From assembly GCA_947489665.1 (NCBI GenBank), contig CANLEH010000001.1, positions 1,150,501 to 1,214,500 on the forward strand: 64,000 bases of DNA. The letters are read 5' to 3'. Below are positions 3,553 through 64,000 of the stretch, one piece after another. The stretch's first letter is position 1; each line of letters starts with the position of its first letter. This DNA comes from an uncultured Roseicyclus sp. (GTDB taxonomy: Bacteria; Pseudomonadota; Alphaproteobacteria; Rhodobacterales; Rhodobacteraceae). The notes under the pieces were generated by a model, which searched no databases, was not told the DNA's origin, and was given only the letters and a program-made list of their open reading frames with translations. Position numbers and translations under genes: made by a program.

Positions 3553-5063
3553 TGAACCGCCGCTCCTCGCTTGCGCTCCTCGCAGCTGCCATGGCCTCCC
3601 CGGCCTTTGGCCTGCCGATGTTCCGCGAAGGCAGCGCACACCCCTTTGATCGCGATTGGCTGGTCGCCGAGGCGCAGCGCCTCAGCCTTGCCCCCTACCA
3701 GCCGCTGCCCGAAGTTCCGCAGGGCTGGCAGGACCTCACCTATGACGAATACCGCTGGATGTGGTTCAACCCCCAGCGCGGCCTCTGGATGGACGAGGAC
3801 CGCCCGTTCAAGGTCGATTTCTTCCACCCCGGCCTCTACTTTCCCCGGCCCGTTGAGGTGAACGTCGTCCAAGGCGGCGAGGCGCAGACCCTCGCCTTTG
3901 ACCTTTCCCTCTTCGACCGCACCGATCAATTCCCGGACCTGCCGATCACCGAGGAAATGGGCTATTCCGGCCTCCGTCTGCGCGCCGCTTTGGAACGGCC
4001 CGACATCTTCACCGAATTCGCCGTCTTCCAAGGCGCGAGCTACTTCCGCGCCATCGGCACCGGCATGAATTACGGCCTCTCGGCCCGGGGCCTCGCCATC
4101 GGCACAGCGTCTGAGTCAGGCGAGGAATTCCCCGAATTCACCCGCTTCTGGCTGGAAGCGCCGATGCCCGGCGACACGACCCAAGTGATCCATGCGCTCC
4201 TGGATGGCGACAGCTGCACCGGCGCCTATACCTTCCGCATCACCCCCGGCCCGGTCACGCGGATGCATGTGGACATGAACCTGTTCCCGCGCGTCGACCT
4301 GCCGAATGTGGGCCTGGCCCCGCTGACCTCAATGTTCCTCTACGACCAGACCAACCGCGCGGGCCATGATGATTTCCGCCCCGCCGTGCACGACAGTGAC
4401 GGTCTGATGATCCACAACGGCAACGGCGAGCTGCTCCTGCGCCCCCTCAAGAACCCCGATACGCTGCAAGTGTCGTCCTTCGTGGATCACGATTGCCGGG
4501 GCTTCGGCCTGCTTCAACGCGCCCGCGATCTGGCCGATTTCGAGGATTTCGAAGCCCATTACGAATTGCGTCCCTCACTTTGGGTTGAACCCGGCGAAGG
4601 CTGGGGCGAAGGCTCCGTTCAACTGGTCGAGATCCCGTCCGAGTTGGAGATCTACGACAATATCGTTGCCTATTGGCGCCCGCGTGGCGGATTGATTGCC
4701 GGTAACGATTACCGCCACACCTATACGCTGAACTGGTGCGAAGAACCCGAACGCCCCCGCGATGTGGCCCGCGTGATGAACACCGCCATTGGCGGCAACT
4801 GGAACCGCACCCAAACCCTCGTCGCCATCGACTTCGCCAATCACGAAAGCATCGACGGCGCGCCGGAGGATTTCACCAAGGTTGTTCAGTCCAATCGCGG
4901 GACAGTCACCGAAGGTGTGCTAGAACGTAACCCGGGCACCGGCGGCCTGCGTCTGACCTTCGCCGTCGACCCGGGGGAAGAAACCTACATGGAACTGCGC
5001 GCGCAATTGCTGAAGGAAGGGGAGCCTGTGACGGAAGTCTGGCTCTACCGGCTCTCGGCATGA
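3549..5063 (+). CDS. opgG: Glucan biosynthesis protein G (MdoG/OpgG)
   Basis: MdoG-type sequence (FHPGLYFPRPVEVNVV..., YELRPSLWVEPGEGWGEGSVQLVEIPS); ATGA overlap with opgC stop. Confidence 0.85.
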   Translation: MMNRRSSLALLAAAMASPAFGLPMFREGSAHPFDRDWLVAEAQRLSLAPYQPLPEVPQGWQDLTYDEYRWMWFNPQRGLWMDEDRPFKVDFFHPGLYFPRPVEVNVVQGGEAQTLAFDLSLFDRTDQFPDLPITEEMGYSGLRLRAALERPDIFTEFAVFQGASYFRAIGTGMNYGLSARGLAIGTASESGEEFPEFTRFWLEAPMPGDTTQVIHALLDGDSCTGAYTFRITPGPVTRMHVDMNLFPRVDLPNVGLAPLTSMFLYDQTNRAGHDDFRPAVHDSDGLMIHNGNGELLLRPLKNPDTLQVSSFVDHDCRGFGLLQRARDLADFEDFEAHYELRPSLWVEPGEGWGEGSVQLVEIPSELEIYDNIVAYWRPRGGLIAGNDYRHTYTLNWCEEPERPRDVARVMNTAIGGNWNRTQTLVAIDFANHESIDGAPEDFTKVVQSNRGTVTEGVLERNPGTGGLRLTFAVDPGEETYMELRAQLLKEGEPVTEVWLYRLSA

Positions 5064-6931
5064 AGCTCAGCATAGACCCATATATGCCGCCCGAGGCTCC
5101 GCTGGCCCGCCCCATTCAGAACCTGCGCGCGCCCTACACCGACAAAACCGCACCGGGCGTCGCAAAGACCCGCTCCTGGCTCTGGCGTCTTGCCACCTTC
5201 ATCCCGGCGTTTGCCACCACGCTTGCCCTTGTGGCGGCCTTCACCGACTGGTTCGCCATGGGCGGCCTCACGGGCTTCGAGATTGCGCTGATCACGCTCA
5301 TCGCGCTGACCTTCTTCTGGATTTCACTCTCGGTCTCCACCGTGACCGTCGGCGTCGCGCGCCTGTTCCTCAGTCGCCCACCAGCCGCGCCGACCAATGG
5401 CCCCAGCATGGATGTCGCCCTTCTGGTGCCTTGCTATAACGAAGTGCCATGGGACGTCTTCGGCAATGCCTGCGCCATGCTGGAAGAGTTGGACGCGCAT
5501 CCAACCGACCACCGCTACACCCTCTTCATCCTGTCCGACACGCGGGATGAGGCCACGGCGGAGCAGGAACTTCGCGCCTTCGCCACCCTGCGTGCGCGCC
5601 TGCCGGACCATATCCGCCTCCACTACCGCCGCCGCGCGATGAACACCGACCGCAAGGTCGGCAACCTAGCCGATTGGGTCGAACGCTGGGGCGGCGCCCA
5701 TGACGCGATGCTGGTGCTGGATGCCGACAGCCTGATGTCGGGCGGGGCGATCGTGGCGCTGACCGATGAACTCTCCGCCGATCCCTCCGCGGGCCTGATC
5801 CAGAGCTTCCCGCAGCTTTTCGGGGCAGAAACCGTCTTCGCCCGCGTGCAGCAATTCGCCTCCACCATTTACGGCGCGGTGCTGGCCGAGGGGCTGGCCA
5901 CATGGTCCGACCGGGAAGGCAATTACTGGGGCCATAACGCGATCATCCGCACCGCCGCCTTCGCCTCCTGCGCCGGCCTGCCCAAGATCAAGACCATCAC
6001 CGGCAAAGGCGCGCTGATCCTGTCCCACGACTTTGTGGAGGCCGGCCTTCTGCGCCGCGCGGGCTGGGGCGTGCGCTTCTCCCCCCGCATCAAGGGCAGT
6101 TATGAGGAAGTCCCCGCGACCCTCATCGATTACGTCATCCGCGACCAGCGCTGGTGCCAGGGCAACCTGCAACACCTCAAACTGCTCGCCTCGCGCGGCT
6201 TCCACGGCGTCTCCCGCTTCCACCTCTTCCACGGGGCGGTCAGCTATCTGCTTTCGCCCATGTGGTTCCTGCTTCTGATGACCTGGGCGCTGATCGGCAC
6301 TGGCGCGGATCAGAACGTGATCCGCTACTTCTCGGGCCTCAACCCGCAAGTGCAATGGCCTGAGATGACGGTGGTCCATTCCTCGGCGCTTCTGATCTTC
6401 ATGTACGGCATGCTGCTCGCGCCCAAGGCGCTGGGGGCTGCGGCCATCGGCGGCATCGGCCTGCGCGTGGCCGAGCTTGGCGGCCCGATCCGCTTCGCTG
6501 CGTCGTTTGTGGCAGAGCTGATCCTGTCGATCCTCTACGCGCCCATCCTGATGGTGCAGCAAACCCTTGCCGTGGTCCGCTCGATCCTGGGCCTGAAAGT
6601 CGACTGGAAACCGCAGGCGCGGGCAGGGGGCGCCTATTCGCTCTGGTCGATGCTGAAATTCCACTGGTTGGAGACACTGGCAGGCGCGGGCCTGGTGGCC
6701 GGCATGGCGGCCGGCATCGTCTCTCTCTGGCTGCTGCCCATCGCCGTGTCGCTGGCCATGGCCGTGCCGCTCTCGGCGCTCTCTGGCCTGAACCTCACCC
6801 ACTTCCGCGCCACCCGCCGTGCCCTTGGGACGCCCGAGGTCTACGCCGCACCCGCGATCATCCGCGCCGCCAAGGCGCACCGCGCCGAGCTGCGCGAGAC
6901 GCTGCGCGATCTGCCGGAAGCCGCGGAATAA
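5060..6931 (+). CDS. opgH: Glucans biosynthesis glucosyltransferase H (MdoH/OpgH)
   Basis: GT2 motifs (VALLVPCYNEVPWDVFGN, MLVLDADSLMSG, RDQRWCQGNLQH) and multiple TM segments. Confidence 0.93.
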   Translation: MKLSIDPYMPPEAPLARPIQNLRAPYTDKTAPGVAKTRSWLWRLATFIPAFATTLALVAAFTDWFAMGGLTGFEIALITLIALTFFWISLSVSTVTVGVARLFLSRPPAAPTNGPSMDVALLVPCYNEVPWDVFGNACAMLEELDAHPTDHRYTLFILSDTRDEATAEQELRAFATLRARLPDHIRLHYRRRAMNTDRKVGNLADWVERWGGAHDAMLVLDADSLMSGGAIVALTDELSADPSAGLIQSFPQLFGAETVFARVQQFASTIYGAVLAEGLATWSDREGNYWGHNAIIRTAAFASCAGLPKIKTITGKGALILSHDFVEAGLLRRAGWGVRFSPRIKGSYEEVPATLIDYVIRDQRWCQGNLQHLKLLASRGFHGVSRFHLFHGAVSYLLSPMWFLLLMTWALIGTGADQNVIRYFSGLNPQVQWPEMTVVHSSALLIFMYGMLLAPKALGAAAIGGIGLRVAELGGPIRFAASFVAELILSILYAPILMVQQTLAVVRSILGLKVDWKPQARAGGAYSLWSMLKFHWLETLAGAGLVAGMAAGIVSLWLLPIAVSLAMAVPLSALSGLNLTHFRATRRALGTPEVYAAPAIIRAAKAHRAELRETLRDLPEAAE

Positions 6932-6976: not shown

Positions 6977-7051
6977 CAAACTCTGACCAAATGGACGCTT
7001 TTTTCCGGAAAATTGTGACCAAATGGACGGAGTTCCGACCAAATGGTCACA
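6977..7051. repeat. 75-bp triple-palindrome intergenic element, copy A (minus orientation)
   Basis: Three 12-bp modules GACCAAATGGAC / GACCAAATGGAC / GACCAAATGGTC at 6985, 7017 and 7037, plus shared backbone with copy B at 63757-63831. Confidence 0.85.
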
Positions 7052-7879
7052 TTATTGGTCGAGCGCCTCGTACCAATCGAGCGCCAGATCGGCCCATCCG
7101 CGCGGCACCGCATGGCCGCCGGGGAAGAGCGCGAATGTCAGCGATCCGGCGTCACACGACGTCCAGATCCGCTGCCAATAAAAGCCCTCATTGGTGATCT
7201 CATCGGGCGCAGAGCGGTTGCATCCATTCGTCTCGCGCCAGATCTCCATACCGGCAAAAACATCGCCCTGCCGCACAGCCCCATCGCGGAAAACACGGCC
7301 TTCAATTGGCACGGTTCCGTCCGTCCAGCCATGGGTGTGGAGCACATCGACCGGCCCCGCGCAGGCATCCAGCGCGGGATGTGGTCGCCAGAACGACCCC
7401 GCCACGGGCGCATAGGCGCGCGCAATGTCAGGGGCATCGCAGGCCAGGTAGGATGTCATGGAGCCGCCGATGGAAAACCCTGCAATAACAACGTCTTCAC
7501 GATCAATGCCATGCACTTCCGCCGCGTGGCTGAGCACCTCTTCAAAGTAGGCCGCTTCATCGCGGATGGGCTCGAATTCCGGATGGAACGACCAGGTGGA
7601 GCCGAAGCGAGAGCCTTCCCGTTGCAACCCCTGTGGCCCGATCAAGGCATAGCCGCGCGCCGTCACGGCCTCGCGCAGCATGTTTACCATGCCCTCACCA
7701 CGCCCGCCCGCGCCGTGCAGCATCATCAGGGCAGGGAAGGGGCCTTCGCCCTCCGGCAGCGCGATGTGGTACTCGCCCATCGGCACTTCACACGCCCCCT
7801 CGGCCCCGGCGCAATCGGCAAAAGCAGGGCAAGCTGCCGCCAGAAAACCCAGCGCAGTCAGAGTGTTACGAACGATCAA
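7052..7879 (-). CDS. Secreted PHB-depolymerase-like esterase (LpqC family)
   Basis: LPEGEGPFPALMMLHGAGGRGEGM, GFSIGGSMTSYLAC, signal peptide; TTG start near 7879 inferred. Confidence 0.75.
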   Translation of the reverse strand: MIVRNTLTALGFLAAACPAFADCAGAEGACEVPMGEYHIALPEGEGPFPALMMLHGAGGRGEGMVNMLREAVTARGYALIGPQGLQREGSRFGSTWSFHPEFEPIRDEAAYFEEVLSHAAEVHGIDREDVVIAGFSIGGSMTSYLACDAPDIARAYAPVAGSFWRPHPALDACAGPVDVLHTHGWTDGTVPIEGRVFRDGAVRQGDVFAGMEIWRETNGCNRSAPDEITNEGFYWQRIWTSCDAGSLTFALFPGGHAVPRGWADLALDWYEALDQ

Positions 7880-8324
7880 CCGGCAATCCTTCCCTGATCC
7901 ACCCAGGCCCCGCACCGGACCCGAGCATGCCTTCCGGCACGTCAATGATGTTGGTGAACCCGGCCTCCGTCAGCCGGTTGGTCAGGCGCGACGACCGTAC
8001 GCCCCGCGCACAGATCAGCGCGACGCGAGCATCGGTGGCACCACCGGTAAGCGCTAGTAAAGCCTCGGAAAAATCGTCCCGCCGCATGTCCAGTCGATGG
8101 CCCGAGGCGGGCGAACCCGTCGCCGCCCATTCATCCGGGCGGCGAATGTCGATCAGCAAAATCTCACCGGCGGACGCCATCTCATGGGCCTCACCCACGC
8201 TGATTTGCTCGCCCACATCCTCCGACAGGGCGGCATAGAACAGGTTCCGCCCCTCGGTCGCGGCAAAGCCCACACCGACCAGCGCCAGCGCACCGGCGCC
8301 AATCAGAAACCGTCTGCGGTTCAC
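7866..8324 (-). CDS. Rhodanese-like domain protein with N-terminal signal
   Basis: EILLIDIRRPDEWAATG...VALICARGVRSSRLTNRLTEAGFTNIIDVPEGM; GTG start (VNRRRFLIGAGALALV) inferred. Confidence 0.82.
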   Translation of the reverse strand: MNRRRFLIGAGALALVGVGFAATEGRNLFYAALSEDVGEQISVGEAHEMASAGEILLIDIRRPDEWAATGSPASGHRLDMRRDDFSEALLALTGGATDARVALICARGVRSSRLTNRLTEAGFTNIIDVPEGMLGSGAGPGWIREGLPVDRS

Positions 8325-16429: not shown

Positions 16430-16527
16430 TGACCCGCGCAGCCATCTTTGTTCCCTGAAAATGCAAATCAGACCTTCGCCATTGATCCGCCGCCTGAAGC
16501 TGAAGCGTCACCTACGCGACCTGACCC

Positions 16528-28979: not shown

Positions 28980-31637
28980 TCAGAGCGTTTCAGTCACCCG
29001 ATACCGATTGCCGCCCAATTCCTCCAGCACGCCATCCCGCGTCAGCGTCTCGACTGCGGAAATCGCTTCCTCACGCGAAATCGATCCGTCGGTGGCGATC
29101 CGCACCAGGCGCAGCAGTTGCATGCGCTTGAATTCGACAAGGCCAGCTTCGCGGGACAGGTAGGTTGCACCCATCTCGACAACTTCTTCGATCTCAGTTG
29201 CAGGCGACTCTTCCAGGCGCTGCGCAAAAACGGCGAAATGGTCGACTTCGGCGCCGGCATCCTGTGCCGTGGCTGCATCCGCGTCGGCGGTGTCGCGAAC
29301 TTCGTCGATTTCCTGCGCCAGTTGAGCTTCAAGTGCTGCGATTGGATCGTCGAAATCGGCGTCTTCTTCGATGTCGGTTTGCGCGGCGGCGCTGGGTTTC
29401 GCGGCGGGCATCTCGGGCGCGTCCATTTCGGGAGCGTCCGCAACAGCCTCATCGGCTTCTGCCGCGACCTCTTCGCGGGGCGAACGCCCCAGGCCGGACG
29501 CGATCATCCCGGCACGTTGTGCCAGATTGGCCAGCGAATTTGCCATCTTGCGCGGGGCAGGGCGGGCGGCTTCCACGGCTTCGGCGTCAACCTCTTCGAC
29601 CGCAGTCTCGGCCACAGCGACCTCTTCGTTCAGAACCAAAGGCGTGGCGGCAGGCCCGGTCTCGGGGCGATCCGCAACCTCGGCTTCCGTCGGCGACACA
29701 CGGCGCGGTGCGACCGGTGCAGCGGGTGCTGCCGGCGCGTCATCTTCGATGCGCTGTTCGGACACCAGAACCAGCGGTGCAGGGCGTTCTTCGGCGGCCA
29801 GTTGGCGACGCGAGACGTCAACGCGCACGCGGCGCGGGCGCATTACGCGGGCCAGATCCTCACGATATTCGGCGGCGTCGTCCTCAAGCCCCGTCATATC
29901 GGCAACCGAGGCCCCATCCGCGGCCAGTTGGGTTTCTGCGGCGCGAGCGGCCACGGCTGCTTTCAGATGCTCGATATTGGCGCGACGACGGGTCGTCTCA
30001 ACCGTGGTCAAACGGCCTTCGGTGGCCTCGAACAGGCGATCCATGTCGCCGCCACCATCGCCGTCCGCATCGGCGAAAGCCGTGCGATCAGCGCTTGGGG
30101 GTGTGGGAGAGTCAGGCGTTTCGTCGGCGATTGCTTCGGCGATGTCGTCCGCAACAGTAGCAGGTGCCGCTTCGATGGCCTCGGCAATCTCTTCCGCAGG
30201 TTCTTCAATGGCAGGTGCGGTCACGGCGGCGATGGCGGCCAATGTATCGCTGTCGTCGTCCTCAGTTTCTACGACCTCGTCGATCCCGTCAGCTTCCAGC
30301 GCTTCTGACGCTGCAGCCATGGTGGAGGCGCCGGTTGCGAACGCGGCGGCGAGTGCTGCAACAGCGGCATCGTCATCGGCTTCGATCACAGGCTCGGGCG
30401 CGGCGCCTTCTCCACCGGCGGAGATCAGTTCATCATCAGGTTGCACGGTCGCAGGCGCATCGCCTGTTTCAGCCAATGCGGCGCGACGGATACGGGCCAG
30501 GCGAGCGGCAACGGAGGCGCCATCAAAGGCGGCCTCTTCGTCATTCTCATCAGCAAAAATCGAGTCGATATCGCCGTCATCATCGTCCTCATCGAGATCG
30601 GCCATGATGCTGTCAGCGGTGTCTGCGTCTTCGGCCTCTGCGATATCTTCCGCATCAGTGTCATCTGCAGGCGCGCCTTCGGCGGCCAGAGCGGCGGCGA
30701 CCGCGATCAGCGTATCTGCTCCGGCAACGCCATCTTCTTCGTCGTCGGCGTCGATTTCGTCATCACCTGCGAGGTCGACTGGTGCTGGTTCATCTGCCTC
30801 CGCCTCGGCCTCAGCCTCAGCAAAATCGGCGTCATCGCTCATGGCGGCTGCGATCCCGGCGAGGGTATCGTCATCTGACGCCTCATCGGCCGCTTCTGCA
30901 ACGGACGTGTCCTCGGCGGGCTCCGCAATCTCTTCCGAGATCTCCTCAGACGCGGCTTCGACCTCTTCCACGATCTCGTCTGCGGCCTCACCAGCAGCTT
31001 CTGCTGCGGCATCGGCGGCCTCTTCGCTGGCTTCTGCAACTTCTTCGATTGTCTCGTCCGCGGCTTCGACGGCGTCTTCGATCGGCTCTTCGGCAACTTC
31101 GGCGGCGTCCTCAGCTGCTTCCGCTACGTCGTCGCTTTCCTCGGCGGGCGCGTCCACGGCCTCGGCGTCAGCGGCTTCTGCAACATCCTCTGCTGCGTCG
31201 TCTTCTTCGTCTTCGGCAAGCGCTGCGGCCCCCGTCGCGGCAGCAACCGCTGCCGTCACGGCCACGGCCTCACCGGCCGGCGCTTCGGGGGCGACGCTTT
31301 CAACGGCATCTTCAATCTGCGGGTCACGCGCGAAGGAGCGTTCGGCAGCGCTTTCGAATGCTGGGGTATCTTCGGCAGGCGCACCTTCGGGGCGCATGAT
31401 CAGACCATTTTCAACCATACGCGATTCGACGCGGCGCTGGATGGCCTCTTCCGTGATGCGGTGCAGGGTCTCGGCATCTGGCGTGGGCGGTTCCGCCCCG
31501 AAATAGCGATCCTCTGCGGCGAGGTCGCGGAAATACTCTGCCACGGCCTTCATGGCCTCAAACGGGCGGTCAAAGCCCTCAAGGGTACAAGAAAACGTGC
31601 CGTAAGAGACCGTCAGGATTTTGTTTTCATCACTCAT
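28980..31637 (-). CDS. Large acidic Ala/Glu/Asp-rich protein with ordered N- and C-termini
   Basis: [39 protein letters not shown] at the N-terminus, long low-complexity acidic middle, basic patches, ordered C-terminal helix domain. Confidence 0.75.
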
Positions 31638-50779: not shown

Positions 50780-50868
50780 TGATGGCGACGGTCTGGTTTC
50801 ACAAGCGGACAGTGCACCGGGGGCTGTTGTCGTTTTTGCATTTTCGGGGAATAAAGAAGGGCAGGGCT

Positions 50869-62362: not shown

Positions 62363-63754
62363 ATGGATTTTCTGGATCAGTTGAAGCAAGCGCTGCCTGC
62401 CGAGGCCTTCCGCGACGTGGGCGCGCAATACCTTGAGGAACCGCGGGGGCGCTGGCAGGGGCAGGCCTTGGCTGTCTGCGCGCCGCGCTCGACGAAAGAG
62501 GTCTCCAACCTACTGAAATTATGCAACGAATCGCGGGTGCCTGTGGTGCCCTATTCCGGTGGGACGGGTCTGGTCGGCGGCCAGATCAAGGAAGATGGGC
62601 CAGCGCCGGTCTTGTTGTCGCTTGAGCGCATGAACGCGATCCGCGCGTTTGATGCGGAGGCCGGGACACTGACGATAGAGGCGGGCGCCGTTTTGCAGGA
62701 CGTCCATGGGATCGCAGAGGATGAGGGCTGGGTCTTTCCGCTGACATTGGCGAGCCAAGGTTCCGCGCGGATCGGTGGATTACTGGCCACGAATGCGGGT
62801 GGTGTGAATGTGATCCGTTACGGCAACGCGCGCGATCTGGTTTTGGGGATTGAGGCCGTTCTGGCGGACGGGACAGGAGTTAACACGCTGTCTCCACTGA
62901 GAAAAAACAACACGGGCTACGATCTGCGGCACCTTCTGATCGGCTCGGAAGGGACGCTTGGCGTCATCACGGCGGCGTCTCTGCGGCTGTTCCCGAAACC
63001 ATCTCAGACCGGTGCGGCCATGATGGCGGTTGCGTCACCGGAGGCCGCGTTGGGGCTTTTGCGACTGGCGCAGAAAGAGGTTGGGGAGGGGATTTCGGCC
63101 TTTGAGCTGATCGGAAAGATGGGCTTCGATTTCCTTTCTGAAGTTGGGCCGGAGGTTCGGCAACCGTTTGAAAACATTCCACAATGGTGCTGCCTGATCG
63201 ATCTGGGCCTGGCCCATGGAAGCTGCGAGGAGGCACTTTTTCGGGTGTTTGAAAAAGCCGCCGAAGAGGGGCTGGTTAGCGATGGCGTCATCGCGCAGTC
63301 CGAACAGCAACGCGCGGACTTCTGGGCGATACGGGAGAATATTCCGGAGGCGAACCGACGGATCGGTTCGGTCTCATCGCATGATATCTCCGTTCCGGTG
63401 GGGCGCATTCCCGAATTCATTGAAAAAGCGCCTGGCCGCTTGGCGGACATAAATGCGTTCAGAATCAACTGCTTCGGCCATATGGGCGACGGGAATTTGC
63501 ATTACAACGTCTTCCCGGTGTCCGGAAAATCCCGCGCGGATCATGAGCATGATCGCGGCGCTGTGAAGGAATGCGTGCACGATTTGGCGCATGAATTGGG
63601 CGGGTCCGTCAGCGCAGAACACGGGATCGGGCGGCTGAAAGTGGGGGATCTTGAGCGTTATGGCGATCCCGGCAAACTGGCCGCGATGCGGGCCATCAAA
63701 GCAGCGCTGGATCCGAACGGGATTCTGAATCCGGGTGCGGTGCTGCGCGCCTGA
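62363..63754 (+). CDS. FAD-binding oxidase (GlcD / D-2-hydroxyacid dehydrogenase type)
   Basis: VPVVPYSGGTGLVGGQ, GSARIGGLLATNAGGVNVIRYGN, GSEGTLGVITAASLRL. Confidence 0.92.
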   Translation: MDFLDQLKQALPAEAFRDVGAQYLEEPRGRWQGQALAVCAPRSTKEVSNLLKLCNESRVPVVPYSGGTGLVGGQIKEDGPAPVLLSLERMNAIRAFDAEAGTLTIEAGAVLQDVHGIAEDEGWVFPLTLASQGSARIGGLLATNAGGVNVIRYGNARDLVLGIEAVLADGTGVNTLSPLRKNNTGYDLRHLLIGSEGTLGVITAASLRLFPKPSQTGAAMMAVASPEAALGLLRLAQKEVGEGISAFELIGKMGFDFLSEVGPEVRQPFENIPQWCCLIDLGLAHGSCEEALFRVFEKAAEEGLVSDGVIAQSEQQRADFWAIRENIPEANRRIGSVSSHDISVPVGRIPEFIEKAPGRLADINAFRINCFGHMGDGNLHYNVFPVSGKSRADHEHDRGAVKECVHDLAHELGGSVSAEHGIGRLKVGDLERYGDPGKLAAMRAIKAALDPNGILNPGAVLRA

Positions 63755-63756
63755 AT

Positions 63757-63831
63757 TGCGTTCCCCTGAACGGAAATACGTTCAACTGAACGCATTTTTT
63801 CAGAAAAGTGCGTTCAGTTGAGCAGAGTTTG
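63757..63831. repeat. 75-bp triple-palindrome intergenic element, copy B (plus orientation)
   Basis: Modules GTTCCCCTGAAC / GTTCAACTGAAC / GTTCAGTTGAGC at 63760, 63780 and 63812; same backbone as copy A. Confidence 0.85.
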
Positions 63832-63835
63832 CCGC

Positions 63836-64000
63836 CTAGCTGCGCACGCCTGAGAATTTTTCGGCCCATTCCCCGCGCTGCTCATCGGCGATTTTTGCGA
63901 ACAACACCTCAGGCACCGTGAAGGCGTGCCCGGCGGGCAGCGCCGTCATCGCGGCATTCGTTGGCCACGCAACCTCCGCTCCCATGGCATCGGCCATCGC
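63836..64000 (-). CDS. C-terminal part of an unidentified protein (truncated by window edge)
   Basis: Open frame on minus strand ending ...[33 protein letters not shown]. Confidence 0.55.

Follow-up and report, generated by a model that had tools for sequence, protein, structure and literature searches.

What kind of element fills the 81-bp gap between two opposing genes near the right end of this 64,000-nucleotide stretch of an uncultured Roseicyclus genome (the stretch is called the window here, its genome G000), and what has kept the element's form while its letters changed? The gap runs between the stop of a GlcD-type gene (63754) and an opposing stop at 63836, and the initial annotation, which had a triple-palindrome element (copy B) fill it at 63757-63831, was correct in sequence and in coordinates. 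It had also held that a second element in the window (copy A) has the same spacing, and this is so: the starts of successive modules lie 20 and 32 bp apart in both, with copy A on the minus strand and copy B on the plus strand. The features of both copies and of their neighbours are as follows.

62363-63754, plus strand: FAD-linked oxidase of the GlcD type (PF02913, PF01565), left of copy B
63759-63824, plus strand: copy B, whole element, with three modules starting at 0, 20 and 52
63759-63772, plus strand: copy B M1, CGTTCCCCTGAACG, F/F halves
63773-63778, plus strand: copy B 6-nt linker between M1 and M2, gaaata
63779-63792, plus strand: copy B M2, CGTTCAACTGAACG, F/F halves
63793-63810, plus strand: copy B 18-nt core, CATTTTTTCAGAAAAGTG (spelled cattttttcagaaaagtg in register)
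63811-63824, plus strand: copy B M3, CGTTCAGTTGAGCA, F/K halves, followed by GAGTTTG to 63831
63836-64000, minus strand, running off the window: what looks like the C-terminus of a methionyl-tRNA synthetase (probable, named from its sequence), right of copy B
5060-6931, plus strand: OpgH-like glycosyltransferase (PF13632), neighbour of copy A
6984-7049, minus strand: copy A, whole element, with modules starting at 0, 20 and 52
7036-7049, minus strand: copy A M1, TGACCATTTGGTCG, D/d halves
7016-7029, minus strand: copy A M2, CGTCCATTTGGTCA, E/D halves
6998-7015, minus strand: copy A 18-nt core, CAATTTTCCGGAAAAAAG
6984-6997, minus strand: copy A M3, CGTCCATTTGGTCA, E/D halves, followed by GAGTTTG on the minus strand
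7052-7945, minus strand: esterase/abhydrolase (PF02230), neighbour of copy A

In register, copy B reads CGTTCCCCTGAACG / gaaata / CGTTCAACTGAACG / cattttttcagaaaagtg / CGTTCAGTTGAGCA / gagtttg.

Anatomy and range of the triple element

Copies B and A are members of a dispersed family. BLAST searches with both against G000 returned dozens of related places, and scoring by half-site and spacing gave 36 elements, which served as the basis of a sequence-only model. Copies A and B, both of which belong to that training set, scored E values of 1.1e-21 and 3.8e-19, respectively. The model identified about 44 primary elements in G000 (4.13 Mb) and about 42 in the sister species G006 (best E 2.2e-20), a genome that had no part in building it; G010 had 9 matches and G001 a single weak one, and none were found in nine other members of the genus or among 28 genomes from other genera. 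Among 13 genus members, full sets were restricted to G000 and G006, with relics in G001 and G003, and this distribution, together with the 9 matches in G010, indicates that the system is dispensable. A wider draw of 394 Rhodobacteraceae genomes, with few candidates scored per genome, was positive for the same two genomes only. Likewise, when one genome from each of 84,980 species was scanned with a pattern of 38 bits covering M1 and M2, the only matches were two Roseicyclus records (isolates 2-601 and 3-247-3Z) and an unrelated Prevotella palindrome. A lenient backbone filter applied to about 1.2 Mb sampled between known sites yielded no extra element above chance-like matches. Searches of a literature library found no account of the triple element, although one may exist elsewhere.

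Three other repeats were recorded. In Prevotella/Xylanibacter, a 34-bp palindrome (YGGTCACATGGTCACAGCTGTGACCATGTGACCR) recurs across numerous rumen Prevotella genomes, in some cases as two copies separated by about 120 bp, and is apparently unrelated to the Roseicyclus element. Within the window, a 26-nt sequence containing TTTGCATTTTC is present as two inverted copies 34 kb apart (16442-16467 and 50835-50860), and degenerate short repeats rich in CGTC and TTC extend over 29170-31240, where they probably belong to a gene for a low-complexity protein.

The geometry of the family is strict. In 85/85 elements from both species together, the modules are 14-bp dyads starting at 0, 20 and 52, which corresponds to steps of about 2 and 3 helical turns (the element finder tolerated spacings of 19-21 and 31-33 but scored 20/32 slightly higher). 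The backbone consists of G..CANNTG..C plus a T/A-tract core; among the 36 model elements, the invariant letters were the G, C, T, G and C of the module and the AAA of the core. GGAA, which had been put forward as a conserved backbone motif, is not one: SANNTS predominates in the 6-nt linker, and [CG]A[GT]TTT at the right end. Four half-site words dominate (D, TGACCA; E, CGTCCA; F, CGTTCA; K, TGCTCA), TGTTCA, CGATCA and similar combinations are far rarer than single-letter frequencies predict, and the left half of M3 starts with C in 85/85. With the arm class of a half-site defined by C or T at position 4, class agreement among the six halves of an element was 0.835 in G000, compared with 0.511 for shuffled sets (maximum 0.589 of 2,000), and 0.797 in G006, compared with 0.626.

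Orthologous loci and the 11-bp repeats

The initial annotation had set a test beforehand: if arm type switches between orthologous loci while the backbone is retained, the element is modular and replaceable. The comparison came out that way, with arms switched and with spacing, orientation and backbone kept. Of the 44 elements of G000, 38 have a counterpart at the orthologous site of G006, in the same orientation and between flanks about 79-93% identical. Across these pairs, mismatches amounted to 2.8% at backbone letters and 40% at type positions, with 54% at the central NN, 47% in the outer flanks and 27-29% in linker and core; the backbone G..CANNTG..C is under purifying selection. Class had switched as a whole in 14/38 pairs, 13 of them from class I in G000 to class II in G006 and one in reverse (sign test, 0.0018), the remaining pairs being equal or mixed in class. 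Copy A is itself among the switched elements, reading Dd ED ED in its own genome (L031) and FF FK FF in G006 (L125). The evidence thus supports a modular element with replaceable arms. Decayed triple elements at the L041 locus of G003 and G001 have retained the spacing, or nearly so. A third arm class in G003 was considered; the pattern test gave it no support, and the G003 copy at L041 looks like a relic.

The locus of copy B has a different history. No triple element was present there in any other genome read at that place. The gap is occupied by 11-bp-phased repeats (GTAGTGAACCTGTAGTTATTCTGTAGT...) in G001, G003, G004, G006 and G011 and by a GGTATA version of them in G008, G009 and G010, the only genomes with that type. 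These repeats are dispersed as well, with 16 exact matches in G001, 17 in G003, and 5-7 in each of G000, G006 and G011. In G001 they were not evenly spaced (P 0.34, from an exact-pattern list that is incomplete). The family lies between genes, at times between the genes of transporter operons. At seven loci, some species carry the triple element and others the 11-bp element, with the same orientation in 7/7 exchanges (two-sided, 0.016); in G001, 6/17 of the 11-bp loci coincide with triple loci, compared with about 0.5-2.5 expected (for an assumed 1,500-300 possible gaps). By parsimony, copy B appears to have replaced an older 11-bp element in the lineage of the window. The 11-bp array has no RNA fold (z -0.5 to -0.8). 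The 11-bp repeats seen in viral contigs were dismissed, being either tandem repeats or part of a phage region, in both cases unrelated.

Placement, folding and rival explanations

The mean gap between elements was 97 kb in G000 and 92 kb in G006, and the elements were under-dispersed in both (CV 0.56 and 0.51, respectively, compared with 0.91 for random placement; P 2e-4 and below), which counts as one finding rather than two since the sets are mostly orthologous, with contig ends limiting the evenness test. Large element-free gaps (about 240 kb) remain. By heuristic gene calls, 41 sites could be classified: 19 lie in convergent gaps, 20 in co-directional gaps and 2 in divergent gaps, and some elements fall within about 6-22 nt of a downstream start codon. 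The usual dif core, CGCATAATNTATATTATG, was absent from G000 at up to 3 mismatches; a dif-like sequence, AGTAATCATGATTATGTTAAAT, was identified on C2 of that genome at about 184.2 kb, beside a flip in GC skew (about 180 kb). Elements at 116 and 233 kb on C2 stand 68 and 49 kb to either side of this inferred dif, and no clear depletion of elements at the terminus, as placed by that assignment, was observed.

In general, folding of the elements is stronger than that of shuffled sequences (mean z about -4), as would be expected of any set of dyads. The long hairpin of M2, core and M3 that the initial annotation emphasized in copy B does exist (DNA fold z -8.8), but the importance given to it did not hold: the dominant helix is shared by orthologues in 13/38 pairs on either strand, where chance predicts 13.6 and 12.7, few M2 and M3 modules are fully palindromic (mismatches fall mostly at half-site positions 1 and 3), and few elements resemble terminators. 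Copy A folds differently, its M1 pairing with M2. RNA structure of the element is not conserved. Because class agreement is the same within modules (0.84) as between them (0.82) and the dominant helix is unconserved, a protein that reads whole elements is favored over base pairing; imperfect M2 and M3 modules, and replacement by an 11-bp family that has no fold, argue likewise for reading as DNA. Rfam gave no match in the window at the gathering score, nor did the elements of six loci match any of its models with E as high as 1; an RNA family was rejected on that ground. A phage origin was rejected also, copy A having no match in phage records and the M1-M2 pattern none in viral contigs. Copy B had no match in plasmids.

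Repeats of the REP/BIME kind, that is, small palindromes spread by some transposase and kept as passengers behind genes, would share several of these traits: the elements are intergenic and palindromic, they are confined to part of one genus, and 39/41 classified sites (again by heuristic calls) avoid divergent gaps, as reported for REPs (PMC3733652). What such passengers would not explain is the conservation of address and orientation in 38/44 elements, the lack of near-identical young copies among the elements read, the under-dispersion, or the purifying selection on the backbone. Moreover, GTAG-type REPs go with a RAYT (Y1_Tnp, PF01797) in the genome, and CGTC-type REPs have a stem of 8-9 bp, a loop of 4-5 nt, a CCA tail and an unpaired terminal tag (PMC3733652). 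Searches of G000 for PF01797 gave 0 matches with positive controls, and a mobile REP with its RAYT was rejected on that result. Neither stem nor tag of the GTAG or CGTC kind is seen: the half-sites span 6 bp on either side of NN and in M2 and M3 usually mismatch at positions 1 and 3. The arms, moreover, change while the backbone stays. We regard a REP/BIME-like origin as unlikely. A bidirectional intrinsic terminator, made of an M2 hairpin and T-run on one strand and an M3 hairpin and T-run on the other, would suit the many convergent sites, the T-runs of 4 or more in 32/44 (plus) and 42/44 (minus) elements of G000, the folding in excess of shuffles, and copy B, whose plus strand scores as terminator-like. 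It is nonetheless a very doubtful account of the family: the hairpins formed by the modules have little stability (mean -2.7 to -3.6 kcal/mol), a stable hairpin directly followed by a T-run was found in only 5-6 of 41-44 elements per strand, copy A had no terminator match, and the imperfect M2 and M3, the unconserved helix and the unfolded 11-bp replacement all speak against it.

Operators of an ordinary regulon, by which a transcription factor would control the neighboring genes, could likewise take the form of dyads 6-22 nt from a start codon, and several elements carry extra modules at 24-bp steps that would fit such operators. However, the genes with an element upstream look, from their sequences, like unrelated housekeeping functions, only 2/41 sites lie in divergent promoter gaps compared with 19 in convergent ones, and the members of a regulon would not be expected to be evenly spaced along the genome, leaving this explanation improbable. 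An autoregulated neighbor as the binding protein was also discarded, as the proteins adjoining upstream-placed elements look unrelated (Pfam was applied to one TetR only, next to the L134 element, and identified it as of the YcdC/RutR type). Lastly, the ParB-type protein Noc and the TetR-type protein SlmA act in nucleoid occlusion through dispersed palindromes, which restrict division to places free of DNA, with about 70 14-bp palindromic NBSs in Bacillus subtilis and 24-52 SBSs in Escherichia coli, both depleted at the terminus (PMC4726725). The number and kind of sites in G000 (about 44 in 4.13 Mb) fit such a system, but the elements at 116 and 233 kb flank the dif-like site without terminal under-representation, and no candidate protein was identified; nucleoid occlusion of this sort is highly improbable here.

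A candidate docking site and known systems

The explanation we prefer, at about an even chance, is that the triple element is a composite docking site for a putative sequence-specific DNA-binding protein with shifting specificity and, probably, a chromosome-wide landmark. The three dyads would be sites for dimers of one such protein, or of two paralogues; start-to-start distances of 20 and 32 bp would hold the dyads on one face of the helix, where three dimers might act together, and the T-tract/A-tract spacer could bend the DNA. There would then be about 44 docking sites at conserved addresses, under-dispersed and mostly just behind genes. In one lineage, the preference of the protein at half-site positions 1, 3 and 4 (or the balance between paralogues) may have shifted, with the sites following one by one, which would account for the mixed-class elements. 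At some addresses the whole element may have been exchanged for a helically phased 11-bp array, and because the exchange preserves both address and orientation, the address seems to outweigh the letters in importance. The chromosomal spread of the elements suggests a landmark role, whether in nucleoid organization, segregation or the timing of division. Points that weigh against this explanation are the dispensability of the system, the remaining gaps of about 240 kb, the uneven spacing of the 11-bp repeats in G001 and the start codons within about 20 nt downstream of some sites, which are compatible with a regulatory role.

A bolder form of this proposal, which we put forward as possible and hold tentatively, is that an oriented, helically phased protein array is obligatory at fixed addresses about 100 kb apart and that its code is replaceable, either from class I to class II or by swapping three dyads for 11-bp repeats (GTAGT or GGTATA, depending on the species) at the same address and in the same orientation. 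If true, this would amount to a chromosome-wide addressing system whose code can be exchanged. In two close species, nearly all sites share addresses and geometry, and the recognition letters have moved as a set, partly half way; the family may thus offer a natural record of how a DNA-binding protein changes specificity in concert with its dozens of sites, and a starting point in the search for a chromosome-organizing factor that is still without a name.

Several known systems resemble parts of this picture. PhoB/OmpR-type boxes are 7-bp direct repeats with an 11-bp period, features shared by the 11-bp family, which sits between genes like the triple element. Serine-resolvase res sites consist of three dyads with one short and one longer spacer and a central dinucleotide, a layout close to that of the triple element; unlike res sites, triple elements occur by the dozen, in both orientations and at stable addresses, and as res sites they would rearrange the chromosome. 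The D half-site, (T)GTGAC, we take to resemble the matS half GTGAC, as a lead only: center and spacing differ, the elements spread beyond the terminus, and MatP/matS was ruled out by the absence of a MatP homologue (PF06303; 0/4 genomes, with a positive E. coli control). With REP/BIME repeats (GTAG- and CGTC-tagged; PMC3733652) the family shares short intergenic palindromes in tens of copies behind genes, with several modules together, and differs in the exact helical spacing of three dyads, the orthologous addresses, the arm switching of whole elements and the missing RAYT. In number and form, the closest analogues by function are the NBS and SBS (PMC4726725), palindromes of comparable length that are likewise scattered in their tens over a chromosome; the triple element differs from them in having three phased dyads per site and an inferred terminus that is not depleted. 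Work on Noc, SlmA and REP sites has usually dealt with a single species and a fixed consensus.
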